In this document: positions 6,137 through 32,848 of the stretch, piece after piece
How the letters are laid out: each line of letters opens with the position of its first letter
Numbering within the stretch: the first letter of the stretch is position 1
NCBI GenBank assembly: GCA_013824615.1
Contig: PNOC01000031.1
Span: 1-39,904, forward strand
DNA: 39,904 nucleotides
From: Thermodesulfovibrio sp.
GTDB lineage: Bacteria > Nitrospirota > Thermodesulfovibrionia > Thermodesulfovibrionales > UBA6898
Direction of reading: 5' to 3'
Position numbers and translations under genes: made by a program
Notes under the pieces: model-generated
The model's database searches: none
Told to the model about the DNA's origin: nothing
What the model saw: only the letters and a program-made list of their open reading frames with translations

Positions 6137-7282
6137 CTACTGCAGTCTAATATATCTAACCGCCGTTTCTCCGTCCCCGTCAGACAATAGGCTGCTTATT
6201 GTCCATCCGATCCCAAAGGGCATGTTTCTGCTGCATTGTAATTTAATCAGATTCGCCCCCGGCGCTGCATAAATAACATCAATGGGTGCGGTTGCCTGTG
6301 TTGGCTTGTTATAGGTGGTACTATGGACTACAAGAGTATTGCCTCCGCAGGGTACGTTTGCCGTAGCATCGAATAATCTGCAGGTTATCTTGCCGAACAT
6401 ATCTGCGTCAGATATGAACGCAAATTCAAACGCACCGGAATAGGTCGCCCCATTGTTCGCAGTAATATTCCACCTGTAATATCTATAGTTCCCTGGGGTA
6501 TTAATAAGGAAGCTTCTTGCTTCCATGCTGGTCCAGTTCGTCTGATTTGTCTGAGTATCCAAAACCGACCAGTTTGTTCCATCGTTTGAACCGCTGAGGT
6601 TCCAGTTCTTAGCGTTGCTGGTCAATTGCGCATGTGCACTGGTAACCCCGGTAATCATATATCCCGCTGCCCGCAATGAATTTCCGCTGCCCAAGTCCAA
6701 CTGCACATATCCCGTGGGCGTGCTGATAACACCTTCATAGCCGCCTGTACTGTGGTTGAATAGATTCCAAGTATAATACACGCTTCCATATTCCCCTGAA
6801 GAAGTTACCAGGTTAGGAGAGGGCGCACTGAATCCGGTCATTGTGGGGCCGGGATTTGCCATCGTGCTTGTATAGTCGGGGATATTCCATGCCGCCCGGA
6901 CCTTGCCACTGAGATGATATGTACCGGATGAAGGCAATTGGATGGCCAGCCCTGTATCCTGATACACTCCGGCATTGCCCGTGAGACTGAAAGTACCGTT
7001 TAGAATGGCACTCCCGTTTATCCCCGTTGTGCTGACAACCCCCGCATTATCCACATACGCCTTTGTCGCTGCGTCACTGGAGTTTATCGGGTTGGCAATA
7101 TTCGTCACTGTATATGTCGGAGCGGAGCCCGACAGCTTAATATTGCCCGAGACTTCCAGTTTGGCACCCGGATTCGTCGTCCCAACCCCCAGATTCCCGT
7201 CCACGTAAAAGTCCCCGTTTGCCGCGAAGGCGTTTATCGCGATCAACAGAAACACTATTATCCCTGAAATCCTCTTCCCCAT
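6137..7282 (-). CDS. Secreted tail-fibre-like protein
   Basis: This 381-residue protein starts at the ATG at 7282, preceded by GGAGGAGAAG; a longer frame lacks such a site. A signal peptide covers residues 1-21 (FLLIAINAFAANG). It continues with DGNLGVGTTNPGAKLEVSG and SSDAATKAYVD, motifs typical of phage tail fibres and bacterial surface proteins that imitate them. A middle segment with SGSNDGTNWSVLDTQT and YRYYRWNITANNG resembles a discoidin (F5/8 type C) carbohydrate-binding fold. The last 90 residues contain three Cys. It is probably secreted and may be an adhesin; no phage structural neighbours exist. It belongs to the minus-strand cluster downstream of the Rhs gene. Confidence 0.65.
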   Translation of the reverse strand: MGKRISGIIVFLLIAINAFAANGDFYVDGNLGVGTTNPGAKLEVSGNIKLSGSAPTYTVTNIANPINSSDAATKAYVDNAGVVSTTGINGSAILNGTFSLTGNAGVYQDTGLAIQLPSSGTYHLSGKVRAAWNIPDYTSTMANPGPTMTGFSAPSPNLVTSSGEYGSVYYTWNLFNHSTGGYEGVISTPTGYVQLDLGSGNSLRAAGYMITGVTSAHAQLTSNAKNWNLSGSNDGTNWSVLDTQTNQTNWTSMEARSFLINTPGNYRYYRWNITANNGATYSGAFEFAFISDADMFGKITCRLFDATANVPCGGNTLVVHSTTYNKPTQATAPIDVIYAAPGANLIKLQCSRNMPFGIGWTISSLLSDGDGETAVRYIRLQ

Positions 7283-7323
7283 CTTCTCCTCCATTGTATA
7301 TGTAGTTTGAATTTTCATCATCG

Positions 7324-8109
7324 CTACTGAATAACCCTTATGTTCTTCATTGTTGCGCTGCCCCCGGCGGTGCGGATTGATCCTCGAAGAAATGAGAGAC
7401 CGCCGTTGTTCGTAATAAAGCTGTCATCGTATCCGCCTTCAACCGTCACGGCAATATCGCGGTTCAGCAGATCGGTTTCCATAAAGGTGACGGCCTGCAG
7501 CTGAATGACCTCACCGGAGACTGCCGCGTCATAGGCAGCCTGAAGCGTGTCAAAATATGCAGGGGTTGCCCGGGCTATCCTGACATTACGGAAGTACCCT
7601 GACCCGGTTACGGGAATATCCAGCCTGAGTGAGTCCGGGACACTGAACGACAGGGCTATAGTGCCGCTCTGAGCGTTGACCGCAGTCGGCACAAAAGAAA
7701 CCTGTACTGAGCAGCTCGCTGCCGGTGCGAGAACACCAGAACAGCCGTTAGTCACTGAAAAAGACGAGGCATCAGCACCTGTTACGTTGACTGTGCCTAG
7801 GGTAATGGCTGATGAGCCCGCATTCGTAATGGTGAACGTCTGAGTTGATGAGCTGCCCACCGCAACTGAGCTGAAATTAGAGCTGGCGGGGCTTGCTGTG
7901 ACACTATAGCGCTGAAGCCGCCCCAACAGATTGCCAACAGCATCATATTGATATTCGGTAATTGAACTGTTCTTATTCACCTGGATCAGCCGGTGTGCGG
8001 CGTCGTAGGTATAGATGGCTGTTTCGGCGAACGCTGTACCCAGGCCAGCGAAGATCAAGAACAGTGTCAGCAATCCGCTTACTGCCTGTCTTATTGGTCC
8101 TCTGTGCAT
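7324..8109 (-). CDS. Secreted protein: RHS-repeat fragment, ASH-like domain, GGYD module
   Basis: This 261-residue protein begins at the ATG at 8109, with GGAGGG about eight bases upstream; a longer frame to 8166 lacks support. A signal peptide covers residues 1-29. It then has about two YD/RHS repeats (AIYTYDAAHRLIQVNK, EYQYDAVGNLLGRL), like the ends of Rhs proteins. Residues about 72-170 form an ASPM-SPD2-Hydin-like immunoglobulin domain (SSTQTFTITNAGSSAITLGTV, GCSGVLAPAASCSV). The final 85 residues carry AYDAA, IQLQAV and GGYD, shared with the protein at 4115-5614. It may be a displaced Rhs tip or an independent surface protein. Confidence 0.65.
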   Translation of the reverse strand: MHRGPIRQAVSGLLTLFLIFAGLGTAFAETAIYTYDAAHRLIQVNKNSSITEYQYDAVGNLLGRLQRYSVTASPASSNFSSVAVGSSSTQTFTITNAGSSAITLGTVNVTGADASSFSVTNGCSGVLAPAASCSVQVSFVPTAVNAQSGTIALSFSVPDSLRLDIPVTGSGYFRNVRIARATPAYFDTLQAAYDAAVSGEVIQLQAVTFMETDLLNRDIAVTVEGGYDDSFITNNGGLSFLRGSIRTAGGSATMKNIRVIQ

Positions 8110-8169
8110 AACCAATTCCCTCCTAAGTTTCAAATCCATACCAGTTCTTCGACCAGCTACACACATAAA

Positions 8170-9532: not shown

Positions 9533-12500
9533 TTACTTTGGAGCACAGAATACTCCCAAACAGCTGGTGTACATGTTGTTTTGTGCCATATATGGATATA
9601 GCTTTGACACAGCAGAACAACACTGACTACATCTATTTGCAATCCCTTGGCCTCGAGATCTCACTGTCCCCATAAATCTTTCAACATTGCGACATTCGTA
9701 ACATGCCATCCCCCTTTTTCTCCAATCATTAATTTCCTTAAGCCACTCCATTGGCGTCTGTGGAGCTAAACCAAGAGGATCGTTTCTATTCGTTGGATTG
9801 TTTTCGACATAAACATATAAATTAGTTCCTCCAATCAACCCGATAGGATCCTCACTAATAAACCGCTGCAGTTCCGGACTGTAATACCGCGCCCGATAAA
9901 AATACAACCCCGTCCCATCATTTTCTCGCCCCGTATATTGGAACGGATTATCGGACATCTCACCGGAAGGAGCAACCTGGCCGAATGCATCGTATGCATA
10001 GCTCGTTACCATCTGGCCACTCTCGTTTGAAAGTCCGATGATGCTGCCGAGGGCATCGGCATGGTAATACCTCACCACGTTTATTGCAAGCTCAACCCTC
10101 GCCAGCGGCTCGTCGATATTGAGGGTGCGGATATAACTTACGGTAGGCACACCGTTTTCGATCGCCTGCAAGATATCTTCCCCATCATAAAGATACGGAA
10201 TTGTCCTGCCGTTGATCGCTTTCTCTATCCGCCTCCCAAGGGCATCATATCTGAAACTCGCAGTCAGTGATGTGCAGTCCGGCCTATACCCAGAGATGCC
10301 AGTCAGCCGATTTCTCACATCCCACGAATACGTTGTCGTCCCGCAGGTATTTGCAGACGATGTCATATTTCCGTTGAGGTCGTAGACAATATTTTGCGAA
10401 TTGAAGGTCAACATCCGGTTTGCCGCGTCATGAGCTGTGCTCGCAACCTCGCCCGGCTTTGGAAGGCTGACGCCCTGCCGGTCCATGCTTGTCCTGTCAC
10501 CTGTCTGGTCGTAGGTGTAGGAGAGAGATTCAAGCACCTGACTTGCCGGGTCCTTGTGCTGCAGGTTCAGCAGGTGACTTCCATTGTCGTAACTATAGTT
10601 TGTTGTAGCACCATTGGGGTATGTCGTTGCCGATCGTCTCCCGAGGCTGTCATAAACTATCCCAAAATGTGCAGAAGCCCCATTGATAACCGTGTCCATG
10701 CCGTTCAAGCGGCCACCCGTATCATACCCATAGCTCACCGCAGGCTGACCGGCAACCGTCATTCCGGTCCTCCGCCCAATCGCATCGTATGTATAAGAAA
10801 CACTTCCAATAGGTGTCGTCTCGCTGGCAACCTTATCCGGAACCATGGTGCATCCTCCTCCACAGCCTGTACCGGTATATGTGTAGGCTATGGTCCCTGA
10901 AACGCTGTCAGTAATCAAAAGTATCTTTCCTGTTGCGTCATACAAGTATGTTGTATAACTTCCATCCGCATAGTCAATTCTGGTAACCCTGTTCATCAAA
11001 TCATGCGTGTATGCCGTTACCTGGCCCTTTCGATCAATCATCGAGACAAGATTATCACTCGTATCGTAGACATACGTCTCGATATTCCCCAACTGGTCGG
11101 TCATCTTTACAAGCCTGTTCCTGTTGTCATACTCATATCTTATAATCTGCCCCTTCGCATCCGTCACCTGACTGAGTTTACCGCTGAGATCATAATTATA
11201 ACTTGTCACATGCCCCAACTGATCAGTAGTGGTCAAAAGACTTCCCATCGCATCATAGGTGTTTGCAGTGCTATTGCCCTTGGCATCAGTGGAAGTGATT
11301 AGCCGGCCGAGACTGTCGCAGGTCATCACCGATGAGTTCCCCAGAGGGTCTGTCATCCTGGTTAGATTGCCCATCAGGTCGTATTCCATAGTTGTAATAT
11401 TTCCGGCTGCATCCGTCACTGTCAGCGGCTTGCCAAGGGAATGATACGTGAAGGTTGTAGTCTTGTTATCGGGTGATATCTGGGAGAAAAGATTGCCGTT
11501 GATATCATAGGTCATCCGGGTAATATTCCCCATGGCATCGGTGATCTTCGTAATCTTATTGAATACATCTTCATATTCATATGCAGTCGTATTGCCTATG
11601 CTGTCGGTTTTTGTGAGAAGTCGGCCTTTGGCATCATAGGTGTAAGCCGTAATTCTGCCGAGGGCATCGGTGACCGACAATAGCCTGTTCGTTACCGGTT
11701 CCCTTTCATAGGAAGTAGTACCATCAGGATTGGTTACCGCAGTGATATAGAATGAGTTATTGAAAGACCAGGTTGTCGTCGCCCCGTTGGGTGCGGTCAT
11801 ACTGGTCTGGGGGATGCCTCCGGCACCGAAGGTGTAGGAGAAAGTAACCACTCCGCCATCTGCATGAGTCTGTCTGATGACGCGACTGTCAGAATCATAT
11901 TCGTTTAACACCTCTCGTACACCCTTTTCATTTATGACCTCAGACATCCTTCCCGCGGAATCGTAGTTGTACTGGATAGAGCTTCCGTCGGGATTGGAAA
12001 CGGTTTTGAGCCGCGGATATATGCTTAAAGGATCTGTTTCATATCCATAGCCTACCGTTCTTCCCGAGGAATCTGTTATCAAATCTGTGCGATAGAAATT
12101 CCCGGTCCAGGTCTGGTTGAAGGTCACGAACCGGCCTTCCTGATTGGTGATCTTTTTCAGATATCCGCCCTCAGAGGAAGGCCGCCGCTCGATTGATAAT
12201 TGATTTCCCTTCCCGTCTGAGATTTGGATCAGTCTTCCGTCTTGGTCAAAGGTGTATATTGATCCGTCGTCCATCTTCAACGTCTTTGAATTATCCGCAT
12301 TAAGTGTTGCTACCGCACCGCCAATGGCCGGATCGACAGTATTCTTGTAGGTTCCTCCTGAATATCTGAAGAACGAGTACTGATAATTCCCGGGTTTAAT
12401 CAGAAGCATTGAATTCTGGGCGCTTTGCAGCCACCAGTCGTATTCGAAATACGTGGACATTCCGAAGGCGCCGAGATTCGCAGTTCCGGCACTGTAGGAC

Positions 12501-13273
12501 ATCGAGGCGTTTATCGGAATTACACCGGGAACGGAAAGAATCTGCCTGGAATAAATAAAATGTCCTGTGGCCAGATTCACCGAGGCTCCCGCCGTACTGC
12601 TGACCGATGCACTGCTGTTGCCTCTTCCTGAAGCACTGCCACCACCCGCAGGCTGGGCGCTGTTTCCACCTCCGGCGGAACCGCCTATACCAAAGACCCC
12701 GCCATTTCCTCCGCCTGGAGTACCAGCGCCACTTCCAGCAGCACCTCCACCGCTGGGAGAACCGCAACAGGCGTTTCCGCAGCCACCGGCACCTCCGCTC
12801 GGAGCACCTCCGGAGGCAGAAGCAGTAGGCGGCCCTCCATATACCGGGTGTGTGATGTTCGTGCCGGGGCAGATCCACGTGCTTTTTTTGCTCCAAAATA
12901 TACAGCAATCAGTACATTGGGCAGCATACTCTGAAACCCATCCGGACGGAGGCTCGTGTTCTAATGCGCATTGGGGGTTTCCATATGCATCGCAGTTATC
13001 AGTCGGCTGGCAGTCGCTATACGTGTAGCAGCCAGTTCCCCAGTGAATCTCATATCTCGACTCTCCGACTGTGGCTATCCCCCAGTACCTGGAATCCCTA
13101 CTGGGAGCACCGATGTCCCCACCGCAGCTTCCGTCAATTACTTCGTGTCCCCCCGGAGTTCCCCAATCACATGGGTAATCTGCAAAAGCAAGTCCACAAA
13201 AAAATAGAGACAACAGAATCGTTAGAGAAGAAAGGATATACATCAGATTGCGTTTATGATTTGTCGAAACCAC
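9533..13273 (-). CDS. Rhs/YD-repeat secreted protein with Cys-rich C-terminal tip
   Basis: This 1246-residue protein starts with GTG at 13273, preceded by a G-rich site; an ATG ten codons later is also possible. A Sec signal peptide (LTILLSLFFCGLAFA) is followed by about 130 Cys-rich residues, then a Gly/Ser/Ala-rich linker near residues 150-225. About 900 residues of YD repeats follow, which form the hollow shell of Rhs/Tc proteins (examples: YTYDAKGRLLTKTD, MTYDINGNLFSQI). The core ends in the standard RYYSPELQRFISEDPIG and NDPLGL boundary. Beyond it lie 77 variable residues with seven Cys. In Rhs systems this tip is often a toxin; this one matches no toxin I recognise. Confidence 0.88.
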   Translation of the reverse strand: MVSTNHKRNLMYILSSLTILLSLFFCGLAFADYPCDWGTPGGHEVIDGSCGGDIGAPSRDSRYWGIATVGESRYEIHWGTGCYTYSDCQPTDNCDAYGNPQCALEHEPPSGWVSEYAAQCTDCCIFWSKKSTWICPGTNITHPVYGGPPTASASGGAPSGGAGGCGNACCGSPSGGGAAGSGAGTPGGGNGGVFGIGGSAGGGNSAQPAGGGSASGRGNSSASVSSTAGASVNLATGHFIYSRQILSVPGVIPINASMSYSAGTANLGAFGMSTYFEYDWWLQSAQNSMLLIKPGNYQYSFFRYSGGTYKNTVDPAIGGAVATLNADNSKTLKMDDGSIYTFDQDGRLIQISDGKGNQLSIERRPSSEGGYLKKITNQEGRFVTFNQTWTGNFYRTDLITDSSGRTVGYGYETDPLSIYPRLKTVSNPDGSSIQYNYDSAGRMSEVINEKGVREVLNEYDSDSRVIRQTHADGGVVTFSYTFGAGGIPQTSMTAPNGATTTWSFNNSFYITAVTNPDGTTSYEREPVTNRLLSVTDALGRITAYTYDAKGRLLTKTDSIGNTTAYEYEDVFNKITKITDAMGNITRMTYDINGNLFSQISPDNKTTTFTYHSLGKPLTVTDAAGNITTMEYDLMGNLTRMTDPLGNSSVMTCDSLGRLITSTDAKGNSTANTYDAMGSLLTTTDQLGHVTSYNYDLSGKLSQVTDAKGQIIRYEYDNRNRLVKMTDQLGNIETYVYDTSDNLVSMIDRKGQVTAYTHDLMNRVTRIDYADGSYTTYLYDATGKILLITDSVSGTIAYTYTGTGCGGGCTMVPDKVASETTPIGSVSYTYDAIGRRTGMTVAGQPAVSYGYDTGGRLNGMDTVINGASAHFGIVYDSLGRRSATTYPNGATTNYSYDNGSHLLNLQHKDPASQVLESLSYTYDQTGDRTSMDRQGVSLPKPGEVASTAHDAANRMLTFNSQNIVYDLNGNMTSSANTCGTTTYSWDVRNRLTGISGYRPDCTSLTASFRYDALGRRIEKAINGRTIPYLYDGEDILQAIENGVPTVSYIRTLNIDEPLARVELAINVVRYYHADALGSIIGLSNESGQMVTSYAYDAFGQVAPSGEMSDNPFQYTGRENDGTGLYFYRARYYSPELQRFISEDPIGLIGGTNLYVYVENNPTNRNDPLGLAPQTPMEWLKEINDWRKRGMACYECRNVERFMGTVRSRGQGIANRCSQCCSAVSKLYPYMAQNNMYTSCLGVFCAPK

Positions 13274-17345: not shown

Positions 17346-18326
17346 TTACTCGGCAGGCAGCACCGGTCTCGGGTATAGTCCGGCAGCCTTGACAATCGGC
17401 TCCATTGCAGACTCCCACTCAATGGCCTGAATATGGACCCCCTTTATGCCGGGAATCTCAAGCGCCTGCTGAACAAGTTCGACGGCAATTTTGATACCTT
17501 CCTGTTCCTGAAGTTCACGCATCTTCTTTTTGTCATCCCCTGCAGCAGCCTTGGCCTTGTTCATGCGGTCGATGAGTTCCTTGGGCACGGTGACCCCTGC
17601 AACTGAAGAGTCCATATACTTGAGCATCATGGCACTCTTGGGAACGATTATACCGGCAAGGATGGCTGTTCTTTCATGCAGCCCCAGGTTGCGCGCCTTT
17701 TCCATCTGGGACTTGAAAAGTTCCATATCATAAATGCCCTGAGTCTGAATGAAGTCAGCTCCGGCATCCACCTTTTTCTTGAGATTATAAGGCCGGAAAT
17801 CCATGGGGTCGCCCATCGGCGTCCATGAGGCTCCGATGAAAAACTTCGGGGCAACCTCAAGCTTGTCCCCACCCTGCTGCAGGCCTTCATCCCGCATCTT
17901 TTTCATGATGCCCACGAGTTGGCAGGTGTCCACATCGTAGACGTTTTTGGCCCCGGGATGGCCCTTCAGCTTCCCGGACGCGCCGAACTTCTGATGGTCA
18001 CCGGCAATGCAAAGGCAGTTTTTGAGGCCAAGAGCAGCTGCCCCGAGGAGATCCGCCTGCATGGCGATCCGGTTCCTGTCGCGGCAGGTCATCTGCATGA
18101 CCGGCTCCAATCCTTCACGCTGGGCAATGAACGCAGCTGCGATGCTCGATATGCGGACCACCGCGGTCTGGCAGTCGGTAATATTCGCCGCATCACAGAA
18201 GCCCTTTAACTGCCCTGCCTTATGTATTACCTCATGAGGATCGGCACTCATGGGAGGCCCAAGCTCTGCAGTGACGGCCATCTTGCCACTGGCAATGACT
18301 CTTTCAAGGTTGCTGCCGCTCTTCAT
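17346..18326 (-). CDS. metF: Methylenetetrahydrofolate reductase, large subunit
   Basis: This 326-residue flavoprotein has the MetF TIM-barrel: VTAELGPPMSADPHEV opens the fold, followed by DAANITDCQTAVVRIS, EPVMQMTCRDRNR and CLCIAGDH, all characteristic. It interconverts methylene-THF and methyl-THF, the step that makes the methyl group in the Wood-Ljungdahl pathway. MetF here lies one codon after metV and last in an operon with hdrABC and mvhD, as in Moorella, where the proteins form one complex. That complex has been proposed to couple methylene-THF reduction to a second electron acceptor. The start touches the stop of metV. Confidence 0.93.
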   Translation of the reverse strand: MKSGSNLERVIASGKMAVTAELGPPMSADPHEVIHKAGQLKGFCDAANITDCQTAVVRISSIAAAFIAQREGLEPVMQMTCRDRNRIAMQADLLGAAALGLKNCLCIAGDHQKFGASGKLKGHPGAKNVYDVDTCQLVGIMKKMRDEGLQQGGDKLEVAPKFFIGASWTPMGDPMDFRPYNLKKKVDAGADFIQTQGIYDMELFKSQMEKARNLGLHERTAILAGIIVPKSAMMLKYMDSSVAGVTVPKELIDRMNKAKAAAGDDKKKMRELQEQEGIKIAVELVQQALEIPGIKGVHIQAIEWESAMEPIVKAAGLYPRPVLPAE

Positions 18327-19046
18327 CTATTTGCCCTCCCCCGTTAATGTCGCTTTCTTTTCTTCTTCAGCTTCATACGCCCGAATATGCTCCAGAGAAA
18401 TCCTGCGAGGGCCGCCATGAGTGGCGGTTGACCAGTCACGCGGCGGCTGTACCTCGAAGAGCTTTTCGAGCGTTCCGAGTTTCTTCATCCGCTCAACGAT
18501 CAGGAACCAGGCGCAGTCCGTCTCGCTGCTCACCTCGCATTTGCCCTTATCAGTCCCTCCGCAGGGGCCGTTCATCAGGGACTTTGAGCACCGTACAATA
18601 GGACAGATACCCCCGGTGAGATGCAGAATGCAGTTACCGCATCCACCGCAGAGTTCGACAAAGAAACCTGCTTCAGGAACAGCACCATAAAAGCTGGTAT
18701 TAATACCCGGATATACCGGGATGGCCCCTGCAAGCCGGTCGGCAAGAAAATTGACGCCGACGCCGCAGGCGGTTGAAAGGATGAGATCATAGGTCTTCAC
18801 TTTTTCATCCAGGGGCTCAAAGAACTCCGGCTCGCAGTGGCGCTCAATCCCGGCACTGTCAATCAGCAGGTCCAGCCCTTCCTGCTTGGCCCTCATGCGG
18901 AGCATCGAGGCAAGAAGTTCCGCCTCTTTACTGCCGCCCGCATGGCAGATCGCAACACAGGTGTTGCAGCCATAGACAAGGACCTTCTTGAAGCCCTTCA
19001 CCATGTCCCAGATTTCATCAAATGGTTTTTGCTTGCCTACTATCAT
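18327..19046 (-). CDS. metV: MetV, Fe-S/zinc subunit of methylenetetrahydrofolate reductase
   Basis: This 239-residue protein combines a MetV N-terminal domain (VLVYGCNTCVAICHAGG, DSAGIERHCEPEF, STACGVGVNFLADR) with Cys-rich segments ELCGGCGNCILHLTGGICPIVRCSK and NGPCGGTDKGKCEV. The Cys clusters probably hold Fe-S and zinc sites that link MetF flavin to the Hdr module. Its ATG overlaps the mvhD stop by four bases (ATGA), with AAGGAG inside the mvhD end as ribosome binding site. The pair metV-metF is typical for acetogens and other WL-pathway bacteria. Confidence 0.9.
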   Translation of the reverse strand: MIVGKQKPFDEIWDMVKGFKKVLVYGCNTCVAICHAGGSKEAELLASMLRMRAKQEGLDLLIDSAGIERHCEPEFFEPLDEKVKTYDLILSTACGVGVNFLADRLAGAIPVYPGINTSFYGAVPEAGFFVELCGGCGNCILHLTGGICPIVRCSKSLMNGPCGGTDKGKCEVSSETDCAWFLIVERMKKLGTLEKLFEVQPPRDWSTATHGGPRRISLEHIRAYEAEEEKKATLTGEGK

Positions 19047-19558
19047 TGCTCAGTCACTCCTTTTTCAGACTGCTTGCGGGAAGCAAGCCAAATTGGTGAA
19101 GGGCCGAGGTTGCGGATCCTGTCCACAAACTCATCACACATCTCGGCCCACCGCGGGCCCATAGCCGCCGACAGGTTATACATCTCCAGACGTGCAGGAT
19201 CTATACCGACCTTTTTCAGCAGTGTCTTGACATATTCTATTCTTCTTGCTGCAAACATATTACCTTCCAGGTAATGACATTGTCCCCGTAGTCACCCGGC
19301 GGCAAAGACTCCGTCGACCCCCTTCTCAAAAGCCGAAAGTATATGGATATGGTCCAGTTTCCCTGTACAGGGGAGCCGGATTATCTTTACGCTCGGCGAA
19401 TAAGAAAGACGCATGACACCTGCCAGATCAGCCGCTGCAAAGGCGCAGTAGTGGCAGGCAAAGGCCAGTACATTCGGCGTCCAGTCTGCCGGTGTGTCAT
19501 GCGGGGCCTCAACGGTCGAAACCAGTATCTGTTCAGCTGCTTCTGCAACATCAGCCAT
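19043..19558 (-). CDS. mvhD: MvhD-like electron-transfer subunit, selenocysteine-containing
   Basis: Read through an in-frame TGA at 19294-19292, this is one 171-residue protein. Residues 35-38 are CHYC, residue 64 is Cys, U89 is encoded by the TGA and residue 94 is Cys in QCHYLEGN. MvhD proteins have GCHPGDCHYxEGN here, so the TGA replaces the first of two conserved Cys; VhuD of Methanococcus has a selenocysteine in the corresponding region. Both halves stay in one frame and are intact: the second half has the family ending EYVKTLLKKVGIDPARLEMYNLSA. The start has GAGAGGAG upstream. MvhD holds a [2Fe-2S] cluster and passes electrons to HdrA. Here it lies between hdrA and metV. Confidence 0.88.
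19252..19294 (-). promoter_or_regulatory. UGA selenocysteine codon and candidate bacterial SECIS
   Basis: Twenty-two bases after the TGA begins the loop of a hairpin: ATTACC pairs with GGTAAT around TGGAA (19259-19275). The loop has G in positions 2 and 3. A lower CAA/TTG stem follows beyond a four-by-four internal loop. Distance and shape fit bacterial SECIS rules; SelB binding is inferred. Confidence 0.65.
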
Positions 19559-19591: not shown

Positions 19592-22500
19592 TCAATTAAG
19601 CACTCCGGGTTCAGACTCTACCGCAGCGTCGATCATCGCAAGAATCTGATCGTCACGGAAATTGTTCACCTGGAAGGCCTTTGCAGGACAGATGCCTGCA
19701 CAGATGCCGCAGCCCATACATTTGATCTCATTATGGGAAATTTTTCCGTCCTCGGCAATATACGGGGAACCAAACGGGCAGACCCTGAGACAGCTCAGGC
19801 AGGACATGCAGAGTTCGCGCTTGTGCTTTGCAATGATGCCAGAAACCGCAAGCCGCTTATGGGACAGTACTACCCCTGCCCGCCCTGAGGCTGCAAGGGC
19901 CTGTGTGACCGTCTCGTCGATATTCTTCGGCGCATGACCGAGGCCGGCGACGAAAAGACCCTCGCTGGGAAAGTCCACGGGACGAAGTTTTACGTGGGCC
20001 TCCAGAAAATACCCGTCAGGATTTCTCGTGACCTTATACATGGCCCCGACCTGGTCCGTAGTAGGATGGGGCCGCAGGCCTGTGGAAAGAACGAGCCAGT
20101 CAGCCTCAAGAGACAGCTCCCGGTTCAGCATATAGTCCCAGGTCCTTACCGTCACTTTATTTCCAGACTGTGCGACCTCGGGTTTTCTGTCAACATCATA
20201 ACGGATGAAGATCACCCCCAGATCGCGGGCCTGCTTGTAGAAATCTTCACGCAGGCCATACGTCCTTATGTCGCGGTAAATGATCATCACCTCTGCCTCA
20301 GGATTAAGCTGCTTGACCGCGATTGCATTTTTTACGGCATCCTGGCAGCAGACACGCGAACAGTACTGATTCGGCTCTTCGCGGGAGCCTACGCACTGGA
20401 CCATGATATAGCGCTCACCTGCTTTAGGATTCTCGCCTTCAGCAATCCTCTTTTCGAGCTGCCTCTGGGTGAGCACATTGGGGCTTTGACCATAGAGATA
20501 CTCGGTCGGCTGGTATTCGATACCGCCGGTCGCCAGGATAACGGCGCCGTGCTCCACCGCGCTTCCGTCTGTCAGCAGGGTCTTGAAATTTCCGACAAAC
20601 CCGTCGGTCTGCTTTACCTCGGCACCGGTATGGACCGTGATCCCGGGATGCTCCTTCACCGCCTCGATGCGGTCTTTCAGAAATTCCTGTACATCGAGGC
20701 CTTCCAAAGTCCGGTAAACACCTTTCACCAGTCCGCCGAGTTCACTGTCTTTCTCGACAATATGGACAGGGAACCCCTGATCAGCAAGGGAAAGCGCTGC
20801 CGTCATGCCGGCGATACCTCCGCCGATGATCAGGCATTCAGGTGTAACGCCGACGGTCTCGCTTTTGAGCGGTTCCTGGAGTCTCGATTTCGCAACAGAC
20901 ATCTTGACGATCCCGATCGCCTTTTTCGTGGCAACCTCATTCTGCCCCTTATGGCACCAAGAGCATTGCTCGCGGATGTCGGCAAGGTCAAAGAGGTACT
21001 TGTTCAGGCCTGCCTCCCGGATCGTCTCCTGGAAAAGCTTCTCGTGCGTGCGGGGCGTGCAGGACGCAATAACCACCCTGTTGAGGTTCTGTTCTTTGAT
21101 CGTCTGCTTGATCATGTCCTGGTTGTCCTGGGCGCAGGCGTATATGGTATTCGTAACATACGTAACACCCGGCTGGTCCTTTACCGCAGCCACTACCTCG
21201 TCGATATTTACGGTCGACGAAATGTTCGTACCGCAATGGCAGACAAACACGCCAATCCTCGGCGCTTCTCCGGCCACGTCCTTCTCAGGAGGGAGCTCCT
21301 TTTCGATCGTCTCGGTCCCTCTCGCTTCTGCAAGGAGGGCCATGACACTGCCGGCGACACTGCTGCCCTGCATGACCGTCTCAGGGATATCTTTCGGCCC
21401 CTGGTAGATGCCGGTAACAAAGACGCCCTCGCGGGATGTCCTGACCGGGGCAAAGGGAGATGTCTTTGGAAAGAGGTACGGGGTGGTCTCAATGCCGAAG
21501 GTCTTTGCAAAGGCCTCTGCATCGCAGTGGGGCTGAAAGCCCACGGAGAGAACCACCATGTCGAACTTCTCGGTCATGAGACTGCCATCCTCGGCCGCAT
21601 ATTTCATGAAGAGATTACCGGTCCCCGGTTCTTCGCGGATTGCCGAAACCATGGCCCGCTGATAGCGCACGCCGTATTCATTCTTGGCCCGTTCGACATA
21701 CTTGTCAAAATCCTTGCCAAAGGCCCGCATCTCCATAAAGAAGATTGTCGGCTCTATGTTCTTGTCATGCTCCTTCGCAATGATCGACTGTTTTGTGGCA
21801 TACATGCAGCAGACTGACGAGCACCACGGATTTGCATTGCGGTTGTCACGCGACCCCACGCACTGTATCCAGGCTACCTTGACCGGATGCTTCTGGTCAG
21901 AGGGCCGCTGCACAACCCCTTTGTATGGGCCTGAGGCAGACAGAATGCGCTCGAACTGAATGGACGAGACCACATTCTGCCAGCGGCCGAGGCCAAGTTC
22001 CTGCCTCACCCGGGCATCGTAGAGTTCCAGCCCGGGGCTCAGGATAATCGAGCCGACGTTCAGCTCTATCTCCTTGCCCTTGTCCTCATAATTTATTGCA
22101 CCGGCCTTGCAGGCCTTCTCGCAGAGGCGGCAGCGCTTTTTGTCAGGATCATTAAGACAGATGCATTGGCTTGAGTCAATGGCACGGGTATTGGGGACTG
22201 CCTGAGGAAAGAGCGAGTAAATCGCCTTTCTCTGCCCGAGCTTCTGATCAAAATTGCTCGGGACCTTCTTAGGGCATTTGACCTCGCAATCGCCGCAGCC
22301 CGTACATTTATCTGCATCCACAAACCGGGGAGCAACCTTCACCTTCACCCTGAAATCACCCGCATCCCCCTCAACAGAGATTACCTCTGCAAGGGTATGG
22401 ACATCGATATTGAGATGACGGCCTGCCTCGACCATCTTCGGTGATATCATGCACATGGCGCAGTCGCCGGTCGGAAACGTCTTATCGAGCATAACCATGG

Positions 22501-22642
22501 TGCCGCCGATCGAGGGATCACGCTGGACCATATGGACCTTAAACCCGCTGTCGGCAAGGTCAAGTGCTGCCTGCATGCCGCCAATGCCGCCGCCAACGAT
22601 CAGGACTGAACCGCGTTTTGTTGAATTCGAAAGCAGACTCAT
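19592..22642 (-). CDS. hdrA: Fused HdrA-type flavoprotein with two FAD modules
   Basis: This 1016-residue protein is about 1.5 times longer than archaeal HdrA. Residues 1-450 are an HdrA-like unit with FAD motif VGGGIGGMQAA, the DCAMC pair (C61, C64), and ferredoxin motifs CTGCGDCEVKC and CRLCEKAC. Residues about 460-1016 are a second full HdrA: VCHCGTNISSTVNIDEV, a second FAD motif GGGIAGMTAA, and two C-terminal [4Fe-4S] motifs, CMSCLSCLRVC and CMGCGICAGIC. HdrA is the site of flavin-based electron bifurcation in the family. Its ATG overlaps the hdrB stop. The long ORF on the opposite strand is antisense shadow. Confidence 0.93.
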   Translation of the reverse strand: MSLLSNSTKRGSVLIVGGGIGGMQAALDLADSGFKVHMVQRDPSIGGTMVMLDKTFPTGDCAMCMISPKMVEAGRHLNIDVHTLAEVISVEGDAGDFRVKVKVAPRFVDADKCTGCGDCEVKCPKKVPSNFDQKLGQRKAIYSLFPQAVPNTRAIDSSQCICLNDPDKKRCRLCEKACKAGAINYEDKGKEIELNVGSIILSPGLELYDARVRQELGLGRWQNVVSSIQFERILSASGPYKGVVQRPSDQKHPVKVAWIQCVGSRDNRNANPWCSSVCCMYATKQSIIAKEHDKNIEPTIFFMEMRAFGKDFDKYVERAKNEYGVRYQRAMVSAIREEPGTGNLFMKYAAEDGSLMTEKFDMVVLSVGFQPHCDAEAFAKTFGIETTPYLFPKTSPFAPVRTSREGVFVTGIYQGPKDIPETVMQGSSVAGSVMALLAEARGTETIEKELPPEKDVAGEAPRIGVFVCHCGTNISSTVNIDEVVAAVKDQPGVTYVTNTIYACAQDNQDMIKQTIKEQNLNRVVIASCTPRTHEKLFQETIREAGLNKYLFDLADIREQCSWCHKGQNEVATKKAIGIVKMSVAKSRLQEPLKSETVGVTPECLIIGGGIAGMTAALSLADQGFPVHIVEKDSELGGLVKGVYRTLEGLDVQEFLKDRIEAVKEHPGITVHTGAEVKQTDGFVGNFKTLLTDGSAVEHGAVILATGGIEYQPTEYLYGQSPNVLTQRQLEKRIAEGENPKAGERYIMVQCVGSREEPNQYCSRVCCQDAVKNAIAVKQLNPEAEVMIIYRDIRTYGLREDFYKQARDLGVIFIRYDVDRKPEVAQSGNKVTVRTWDYMLNRELSLEADWLVLSTGLRPHPTTDQVGAMYKVTRNPDGYFLEAHVKLRPVDFPSEGLFVAGLGHAPKNIDETVTQALAASGRAGVVLSHKRLAVSGIIAKHKRELCMSCLSCLRVCPFGSPYIAEDGKISHNEIKCMGCGICAGICPAKAFQVNNFRDDQILAMIDAAVESEPGVLN

Positions 22643-23520
22643 ATCAGTTTCAACTCCTTTAGGAGGCCCATGGCATCAGTAAGATGCCGGTCGACCTGCA
22701 TGGCGATCGGATCAAAGCCCATCGAAAGCCCGATAAGCTCGGTAATGAAATAGACAGGCAACCGCTGTTCTATGCCGTACTTTTTACCTACCTCGTCCTG
22801 GTATGCGTCGAGGTTGAACTGACAGAGTGGACAGGTGGCAACATAACAGTTGGCGCCGCGCGCTGCCGCGTCCTTCATGATCCTTGACATCAGCAGCTGT
22901 GACTCTTCAGCATCATTGACCGAGGCAGAGGCGCCGCAGCAATCGGTTTTATAGCTCCAGTCTATGGTTTCAACCCCGAGGCTCTTGCAGACAATCTCCA
23001 TGCCCTGTGGATTTTCAACATCATCGCTCACCGGAACATCGCAGGGGAAGCGCGTAAGCAGGCAGCCGTAATAGCAGGCGGCCTTCAGCCCTTCGAGCTT
23101 CCTGCCGGCTTTTGCGGCAAGCTCCCCTGAGGTGACCTTAGTTTTGAGTACCTCAAGGATATTCGAGACCTTGATCTTTCCCTCCACCTTCTGGCCGAGT
23201 TCAGCATTTATGGCATTCTTCAGCTCAGGGTCGCAGGAGAGGCGCTGCTGGGACACCAGGGTCCTGCTGTAGCAGGATGAGCAGGGGATCATGATTTCCG
23301 AAAGACCGGTGGCGTCGGCAATGCCCAGGTTGCGTGCAGGAAGTGCGATAGCAAGAAAATCATCGGTCTTGGCAGCCGCAGTCGCCCCGCAGCAGTTCCA
23401 GTCGTCGATCTCTTTCAACTCAATGCCGAGATTGCTGAATACCATTTTACACTGTACATCGTATAACTGGGACGAGGCATGCAGAGAACAACCGGGATAA
23501 TATGCCAGTTCCATGGTCAC
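22639..23520 (-). CDS. hdrB: Heterodisulfide reductase subunit B homologue
   Basis: This 293-residue protein has the two CCG domains of HdrB: YYPGCSLHAS...NCCGATAAA...PCSSC and CYYGCLLTRF...DCCGASASV...CPLC. In methanogens these hold the noncubane [4Fe-4S] clusters that cleave the CoM-CoB heterodisulfide. In bacteria without those coenzymes the substrate is different or the unit only transfers electrons; in this operon it is likely linked to MetFV. The start overlaps the hdrC stop (ATGA), with GGAAGGGGGAG upstream. All visible cluster Cys are present. Confidence 0.93.
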   Translation of the reverse strand: MTMELAYYPGCSLHASSQLYDVQCKMVFSNLGIELKEIDDWNCCGATAAAKTDDFLAIALPARNLGIADATGLSEIMIPCSSCYSRTLVSQQRLSCDPELKNAINAELGQKVEGKIKVSNILEVLKTKVTSGELAAKAGRKLEGLKAACYYGCLLTRFPCDVPVSDDVENPQGMEIVCKSLGVETIDWSYKTDCCGASASVNDAEESQLLMSRIMKDAAARGANCYVATCPLCQFNLDAYQDEVGKKYGIEQRLPVYFITELIGLSMGFDPIAMQVDRHLTDAMGLLKELKLI

Positions 23521-24128
23521 TCCCCCTTCCCCTGCTTTGCCCTGCGATAGAGGGCCTTCACCTCTGCCACATTCTTTACCTTATCAATCTTGAAATGCAT
23601 CCGTTTCTTTTTCGTCATCGTCATACCCAGCTTTGCCTGGGCCTTCATTTCATCAAAAACAGCCTTCAGCCCGCCCTTTTTCAGCTCGTTAATAGCGGTC
23701 TTCGTTTCATAAATCCCCATGCCTTCAATCTCATTAAACCGGCCGTAATGCCCTGCAGCTTTCATAAAAGAACTGTGGAAATCGGCAATGCGCGGCTTGA
23801 GAGGATCAAGGTGGGCCTCTTTGGACATCTGCTTGAGCGTCTCGGTGATGCGGGCCGTCTGAATATTGTTCGGGCAGCGCGTTCCGCAGGTATAACAGGC
23901 AACGCATTGCCAGACCAGGAGATTATTGAGCGCCTCATCCCTGTCGCCAAGGAGGACTGTCCGGACAAGCCTGTCAGGCGTAACCCCCGTCTCTTCGCCC
24001 ACCGGGCAGCCGGCTGCGCATCTGCGGCACTGATAGCAGGCAGAGAGGTTCTGCCCTGATCTCTCCGACACCTCCCGGAGAAGGGATTTAGCCTTTGAAG
24101 TATCATATTTCAACGTGTTCGTTGACAT
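23517..24128 (-). CDS. hdrC: Heterodisulfide reductase subunit C homologue
   Basis: This 203-residue Fe-S protein is the first gene of the operon. It has two [4Fe-4S] motifs: CYQCRRCAAGCPVG near residue 31 and CVACYTCGTRCPNN near residue 75. It lacks membrane helices, so it is the soluble type that connects HdrA and HdrB. AAAAGGAG precedes the start. The upstream region carries a TTGACA box, consistent with a promoter for the six-gene operon. Confidence 0.93.
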   Translation of the reverse strand: MSTNTLKYDTSKAKSLLREVSERSGQNLSACYQCRRCAAGCPVGEETGVTPDRLVRTVLLGDRDEALNNLLVWQCVACYTCGTRCPNNIQTARITETLKQMSKEAHLDPLKPRIADFHSSFMKAAGHYGRFNEIEGMGIYETKTAINELKKGGLKAVFDEMKAQAKLGMTMTKKKRMHFKIDKVKNVAEVKALYRRAKQGKGE

Positions 24129-31610: not shown

Positions 31611-32762
31611 TCAATCGGATGAAGCCGGGAGAATAACCGTGACCGTCGTCCCCTTTCCCTCAACAGGCTCTATGGTGAGTTTGCCAAAACTCCTTTTTAC
31701 TGCCAGCTGGACAATAGCCAGCCCGAACCCGGTGCCCTGTGACTTTGTGGAATAAAAAGGGGAGACCAGCTTTTCAAGGTCATCCTCCTTCGGCGGCAGG
31801 CCGGTGTTAAATATTGCTATTCTTACGTCCTGATACGGGTCACCTGCGGTCGAGGCCGTTATCCGTATGACAGGGTCTGACAGGTCAATCGCATCAATGC
31901 TGTTCTGGAACAGACAATAGAAGAGCTGGTCCATATCGCTGCGGTCAGCCCGGACAAAGGGAAGGCTGCCGAGTTCCAGACTGACCTGGATCTTTTTCTC
32001 TGCCAGCTGGACAGCCAGCTTCTCAAGCGCAGTGCGGATCGGGGCCTCCGGATGGACAAAGGTAATCTCCTGCTCCCGGGTGAACATTTCATTGTAGATT
32101 TTGATGTCCTGTACTATTCTTTCCAGCCTCGACGTCTGTGCAATAAGATCTGAATAGGTGCCATAGGCATTGCTTTCCGGATCAGCCTTGCGCTGGAGCC
32201 TCCGGATATTTCCTCCCATGATCGCCACCGGATTTCTGACCTTATCTGCAATCCCCCGAATCACCTCCATATCGCACCGGGTTGTCGCCTCAATAAAGGC
32301 GGTTGTCTCGATCAACAGGCAGAGGTCTATCAGGGCGTCAAGGGTAGCCGTAATCCTGAGTCTGTCGTCAGCCGGGATTTCCGAGCTGATTATCTTCTGG
32401 CAGAACTGGCGGACCAGAGAAAAACCGAGATTCGAAAACCTCTGATCGAGCCCGACCTCGACATGCCTGAGGCCGACCTTCCAGAGGTATGCGTGAAATG
32501 ACCGGTCGAGCCCGCGTGTCACAAGGGATTCAAACCAGAGGGCCCAGACCTTCACCAGAAAGCCTGGCCTTTCCTCCCTCTCAAGAATCAACCCTGTTTC
32601 GGTGATATCAAGAAACTCCTGATGCAGAAAATTCGCAAACTCTTCTTTATGCTTAAGAAAAATTGGCGAATAGGTATTGAGCAGTTCAACCTCTTTTTCA
32701 TCCAGCTTCAGCTTCTCGATATACGTCTCGAATTTATCGTATGGGGGTAATGTCTCATTCAT
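31611..32762 (-). CDS. Globin-coupled histidine-kinase-like protein lacking H-box His
   Basis: This 383-residue protein begins at the ATG at 32762. Residues 15-125 resemble a globin-coupled sensor domain, with a likely proximal His at H100 (KVGLRHVEVGL), so it may bind heme and sense O2 or NO. Residues 165-220 form the dimerisation helix; the H-box reads ADKVRNPV, with D173 where the phosphorylated His stands. Residues 235-381 are an HATPase domain with QNSIDAI (N-box), FNTG (G1, Asp replaced by Asn) and GTGFGLAI (G2). It probably binds ATP but cannot autophosphorylate in the usual way. No response regulator is adjacent. Confidence 0.8.
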   Translation of the reverse strand: MNETLPPYDKFETYIEKLKLDEKEVELLNTYSPIFLKHKEEFANFLHQEFLDITETGLILEREERPGFLVKVWALWFESLVTRGLDRSFHAYLWKVGLRHVEVGLDQRFSNLGFSLVRQFCQKIISSEIPADDRLRITATLDALIDLCLLIETTAFIEATTRCDMEVIRGIADKVRNPVAIMGGNIRRLQRKADPESNAYGTYSDLIAQTSRLERIVQDIKIYNEMFTREQEITFVHPEAPIRTALEKLAVQLAEKKIQVSLELGSLPFVRADRSDMDQLFYCLFQNSIDAIDLSDPVIRITASTAGDPYQDVRIAIFNTGLPPKEDDLEKLVSPFYSTKSQGTGFGLAIVQLAVKRSFGKLTIEPVEGKGTTVTVILPASSD

Positions 32763-32848
32763 ACTCGGGTTTTTCCTTCCGTCCAATAATATTTGCCTGA
32801 ACGCATACTACCTTTCCCTGAATCGAGTCTGGGTACTAAGTCAGAAGT

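Follow-up and report, generated by a model that had tools for sequence, protein, structure and literature searches.

A probable selenocysteine codon in the mvhD gene of a Hdr-type methylene-tetrahydrofolate reductase operon of Thermodesulfovibrio sp.

The mvhD gene in the 39,904 bp stretch of Thermodesulfovibrio sp. DNA analysed here (the whole of which we call the window) is interrupted by one in-frame UGA codon, and comparison with related genes very strongly supports the reading of that codon as selenocysteine (Sec). The explanation that we favor, with a probability of about 0.96, is that the gene encodes a full-length MvhD protein with Sec at residue 89, that a SECIS hairpin directs its insertion, and that the protein links HdrCBA to MetVF in a Hdr-type methylene-tetrahydrofolate (THF) reductase. 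The original prediction that mvhD probably encodes a selenoprotein is thus supported by the selenocysteine machinery of the genome, by the recurrence of the TGA in relatives, by a covarying SECIS element and by selection that continues past the TGA.

The mvhD reading frame and its operon

The mvhD gene (FlpD/FrhD family, PF02662) occupies positions 19043 to 19558 on the minus strand and runs from an ATG to a TGA stop codon; when TGA is translated as U it encodes 171 residues, including Sec89, before the terminal TGA. Minus-strand translation bears out the earlier claim that the two halves of the gene lie in a single frame with the TGA alone between them, and the only internal stop is the TGA at 19294-19292 (codon 89 of 171). 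The open reading frame listing breaks the gene at this codon into pieces of 88 aa (19558-19292) and 71 aa (19258-19043), so automatic annotation would give two mvhD halves, as had been foreseen. The joined protein matches the FlpD profile PF02662 over its full length (1-123 of 123, E 1.4e-45, passing the 22.3-bit cut-off), and a profile search of the genome also reports the mvhD match with "1 TGA". The conserved Cys/Sec positions of the protein are C35, C38, C64, U89 and C94. The residue 89 column is occupied by Cys in the Cys paralogues and, where alignments are shown, in the remaining solved MvhD chains, while in chain 9sfi_K (annotated as an F420-non-reducing hydrogenase subunit delta, archaeal-type) the aligned residue is X, presumably selenocysteine. 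The stop had originally been placed at the first Cys of a GCHPGDCHY motif; its position does align with that Cys, but the motif found here is GU-LRGQ-CHY, and GCHPGDCHY is that of the Cys paralogues.

Six genes, hdrC (23517 to 24128), hdrB (22639 to 23520), hdrA (19592 to 22642), mvhD, metV (18327 to 19046) and metF (17346 to 18326), lie adjacent to one another on the minus strand and mostly overlap or nearly do so; for example, the ATG of metV shares 4 bp with the mvhD stop codon (ATGA). They were assigned as follows: hdrC by 4Fe-4S and hdrB by CCG domains (Pfam), each with synteny, hdrA (1016 aa) by its open reading frame and its two FAD/NAD(P)-type domains and ferredoxin domains (Pfam), and metV (PF12225, E 1.1e-34) and metF, the methylene-THF reductase gene (PF02219, E 2.5e-36), by profile match and synteny. 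No in-frame TGA is present in the hdrA gene beside the Sec-MvhD gene; in the literature Sec-HdrA is frequently found together with Sec-FrhD. Six such genes, adjacent and on one strand, are what the gene-content definition of the type IV (Hdr-type) reductase asks for, and the same content and order are described for that enzyme (PMC8760232; PMC9430772). Elsewhere the window encodes a 1246-aa RHS-repeat protein (9533-13273), and the genes that come after it (6137-8166) carry Ig domains of the HYDIN/ASH-like kind as well as F5/8 type C domains. It also encodes a protoglobin-histidine kinase fusion that is likely a haem-based gas sensor (31611-32786).

The 80 best relatives of mvhD were taken from GTDB with one genome per species, and all 80 have TGA at exactly the corresponding codon and at no other, the frame being unbroken before and after it. 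Nitrospirota and Desulfobacterota supply most of these relatives; many assemblies are represented, some of them of cultured strains (including Desulfoprunum benzoelyticum DSM 28570 and Desulfopila aestuarii DSM 18488), and the nearest are Nitrospirota, several of them named Thermodesulfovibrionia or Nitrospiraceae. The dN/dS values have a median of 0.07 (maximum 0.21) before the TGA and, with the hairpin excluded, a median of 0.19 (maximum 0.43) after it; the downstream half of mvhD is therefore protein-coding and constrained, and the earlier statement that both flanks are intact and conserved agrees with this purifying selection. The hdrA gene immediately precedes mvhD in 80 of the 80 related loci, and metV immediately follows it in 79, gene order being judged where the contig allows; in the remaining locus (L095) the contig ends.

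The hairpin downstream of the UGA codon

A bacterial SECIS hairpin, ATTACC-UGGAA-GGTAAT, is predicted at positions 19259 to 19275 (minus strand) from its coordinates, its fold, covariation and locked synonymous sites, and its agreement with the bacterial SECIS (bSECIS) model. Its apical loop (UGGAA) starts 22 nt past the UGA, which is where the whole hairpin had been said to begin; the stem starts at 16 nt. The published model specifies a loop of 3-9 nt, a stem of 4-16 bp, a G in the first two loop positions, a spacing of 16-37 nt and a minimum free energy of -7.5 kcal/mol or below (PMC13188914), and the values found here are 5 nt, 6 bp, a G at loop position 2, 22 nt and -8.2 kcal/mol (55-nt fold), respectively. 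A bacterial SECIS search had been proposed as a check, and the element both fits this model and is conserved across the Sec genes. Judged by fold energy alone the hairpin does not stand out from shuffled sequences (-8.2 kcal/mol, z -0.15), and the energy was given no weight as a sign of a special structure; the case for the hairpin comes from comparison across genomes. An Rfam search at the mvhD site gave no match, which we do not count against a SECIS element since bacterial ones vary too much between genes.

Is the stem then maintained in other genomes? All 90 Sec genes preserve its five inner pairs. Among these genes a Tyr codon TAC always pairs with a Gly codon GGT (38/38) and a Phe codon TTC with a Gly codon GGA (52/52), so that an A-U or U-A pair is kept. 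The joint change of Tyr/Phe and of a synonymous Gly codon preserves an RNA base pair, and at the level of sequence this makes the argument for a SECIS element an unusually clear one. Codons within the hairpin are also locked, namely His CAT in 81/81 (background 60%), Leu CTG in 81/81 (34%) and Asn AAT in 80/81 (55%), and codons beyond it are free. The stem is kept by none of the 19 Cys paralogues, in which Lys, Arg or Thr stands in place of the Leu and the Gly codon appears in all four forms. The Tyr/Phe and GGT/GGA co-changes number 5 on the best tree and 1 when only starred (fully supported) branches are used, and the covariation counts overstate the number of independent events because the Tyr/Phe switch falls on few well-supported branches; since this limits the co-change count, the argument leans also on the locked synonymous codons and on the contrast with the Cys paralogues.

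Selenocysteine machinery and alternative readings of the codon

All four of the genes that had been suggested for a genome check are present: selA (E 2e-184), selB adjoining it (E 3e-110), selC, the tRNA-Sec with a UCA anticodon (tca; also found by ARAGORN), and selD, so the lack of machinery that was to have refuted the prediction is not what the genome shows. The selD gene itself contains one in-frame TGA, as does the gene for a full-length formate dehydrogenase alpha subunit (FdhA), and these two are likely further selenoproteins of the genome. Two additional FdhA-like matches (contigs C29 and C6) also contain an internal TGA. Because 58 of 61 relatives (genomes of the window's order) have selA, the co-occurrence of TGA-bearing mvhD with the machinery tests the reading weakly; none of the three that lack selA has a TGA-bearing mvhD, which is consistent but weak.

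A sequencing or assembly error, with TGC or TGT (Cys) as the real codon, would fit the Cys that the paralogues and solved structures have at the aligned position. It is nevertheless vanishingly improbable: the TGA recurs in all 80 nearest homologues, which come from independent assemblies and include cultured strains, and this recurrence rules out both such an error and a recent nonsense mutation; a conserved SECIS hairpin also lies behind the TGA. The possibility of a miscalled codon, named in advance as a ground for rejecting the prediction, was in practice refuted in this way.

The gene could instead be a pseudogene, or its two open reading frames could give two separate half-proteins, and the downstream half does have an ATG-initiated frame of its own (19258-19043). 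In relatives, however, the codon of that ATG (+12) is variable (Thr, Lys, Leu and others), and the two halves, both under purifying selection, form one domain; together with a TGA confined to one codon with the frame open on either side of it, and with synonymous sites in the hairpin that are locked only in the TGA genes, this makes half-proteins or a pseudogene highly improbable. The low-level reading of UGA by Trp-tRNA that occurs in bacteria makes insertion of Trp or Cys, through near-cognate readthrough or a changed code, conceivable, but this too is very unlikely, given that mvhD itself terminates with TGA, that the genome is equipped with a complete Sec system and with TGA in the known selenoprotein genes selD and FdhA, and that Cys in the homologues at this position is the classical setting for Sec replacement.

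On the selenocysteine reading, the UGA would be decoded by SelB and Sec-tRNA(Sec) under the direction of the hairpin, which lies 16-32 nt past this codon and within the coding sequence, as expected by analogy with established bacterial biology. MvhD, which in homologous complexes holds a [2Fe-2S] cluster (PMC9430772), would then be the [2Fe-2S] electron-transfer subunit that joins HdrCBA to MetVF in the type IV methylene-THF reductase. We infer that Sec is inserted and the complex assembled in this manner, that Sec89 takes the place of Cys as a ligand or neighbor of the cluster, and that it may speed or tune electron transfer between HdrA and MetVF.

Relation to known MvhD proteins and to the partners of MetVF

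Sec-containing FrhD/MvhD (COG1908/PF02662) is a selenoprotein family of bacteria that was listed in 2006, when it had 19 members, among them those of Syntrophobacter, Syntrophus and Moorella (PMC1794560). Four Sec MvhD proteins are present in Desulfobacterium autotrophicum (PMC2702500), and in Desulfococcus multivorans, where mvhD2 adjoins hdrA2 and hdrBC, one MvhD gene is reported as split by a UGA (dmul_C28840/50) (PMC5109826). The gene described here resembles these in its family, its UGA at a conserved Cys, its bacterial SECIS element and its hdrA neighbor (PMC1794560; PMC2702500; PMC5109826), and differs in lying in a Nitrospirota genome and in an hdrCBA-mvhD-metVF operon. VhuD of Methanococcus and other archaea belongs to the same family, and PDB chain 9sfi_K shares the column of its X with Sec89; unlike the archaeal proteins that have two such positions (two Sec, PMC13188914), the present one has Cys38 at the first, and its SECIS element is of the bacterial type and is in the coding sequence rather than the 3'-UTR. 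The HdrCBA-MvhD-MetVF complexes of Moorella and Sporomusa have the same six genes clustered with mvhD directly before metVF, but the MvhD considered here is predicted to contain Sec, of which the two papers make no mention for MvhD (PMC8760232; PMC9430772). The original prediction had also held that a selenium-bearing MvhD is uncommon in a bacterial MetFV-linked complex; for this lineage that is wrong, as the 79 of 80 loci with metV and the long-known family (PMC1794560) make plain.

In the order to which the window belongs, the FlpD and MetV match tables of 61 genomes were compared. MetV adjoins a TGA-bearing MvhD in ten of them and a stand-alone Cys-MvhD in none of the 61, and in at least 16 its upstream neighbor is a ~700-aa protein whose C-terminal FlpD domain is divergent. 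The eight ~700-aa loci that were aligned (L144, L146, L150, L151, L152, L155, L156 and L157) are without the first part of the FlpD domain (the CxxC start) and have Cys at the Sec89 position and no TGA. Judging from these gene neighborhoods, MetVF in this order appears to be served alternatively by Sec-MvhD with HdrCBA or by the Sec-free ~700-aa protein. L039 and L041 (match 1501-1869 in both, read on the minus strand for L041) represent a second Sec-MvhD clade, which is distant; its motif is GUHLGECHYRSGN in L039, it has the same stem with another loop (GGTCC in L039), and in neither genome does this copy adjoin MetV.

The mvhD gene is a sound added example of an already known selenoprotein family. 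What may be new is the degree to which Sec is fixed in the Hdr-type methylene-THF reductase and the Sec-free, MetV-linked substitute in relatives; a literature search, with most subscription papers outside its scope, found the MetVF-linked MvhD clade nowhere described as uniformly Sec-containing. We give even odds to the broader proposal that Sec is fixed in the stand-alone MvhD of HdrCBA-MvhD-MetVF in Nitrospirota and Desulfobacterota, where it tunes the cluster and makes this route selenium-dependent, and that the ~700-aa protein provides a Sec-free alternative elsewhere in the order.

The reading of mvhD given here corrects a gene that annotation breaks in two, as probably happens in many other genomes of Nitrospirota and Desulfobacterota. 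It also points to selenium dependence of an enzyme complex central to carbon fixation in these phyla, and, if Sec is indeed fixed in the stand-alone MvhD, the methyl branch of the Wood-Ljungdahl pathway would be selenium-dependent through HdrCBA-MvhD-MetVF.
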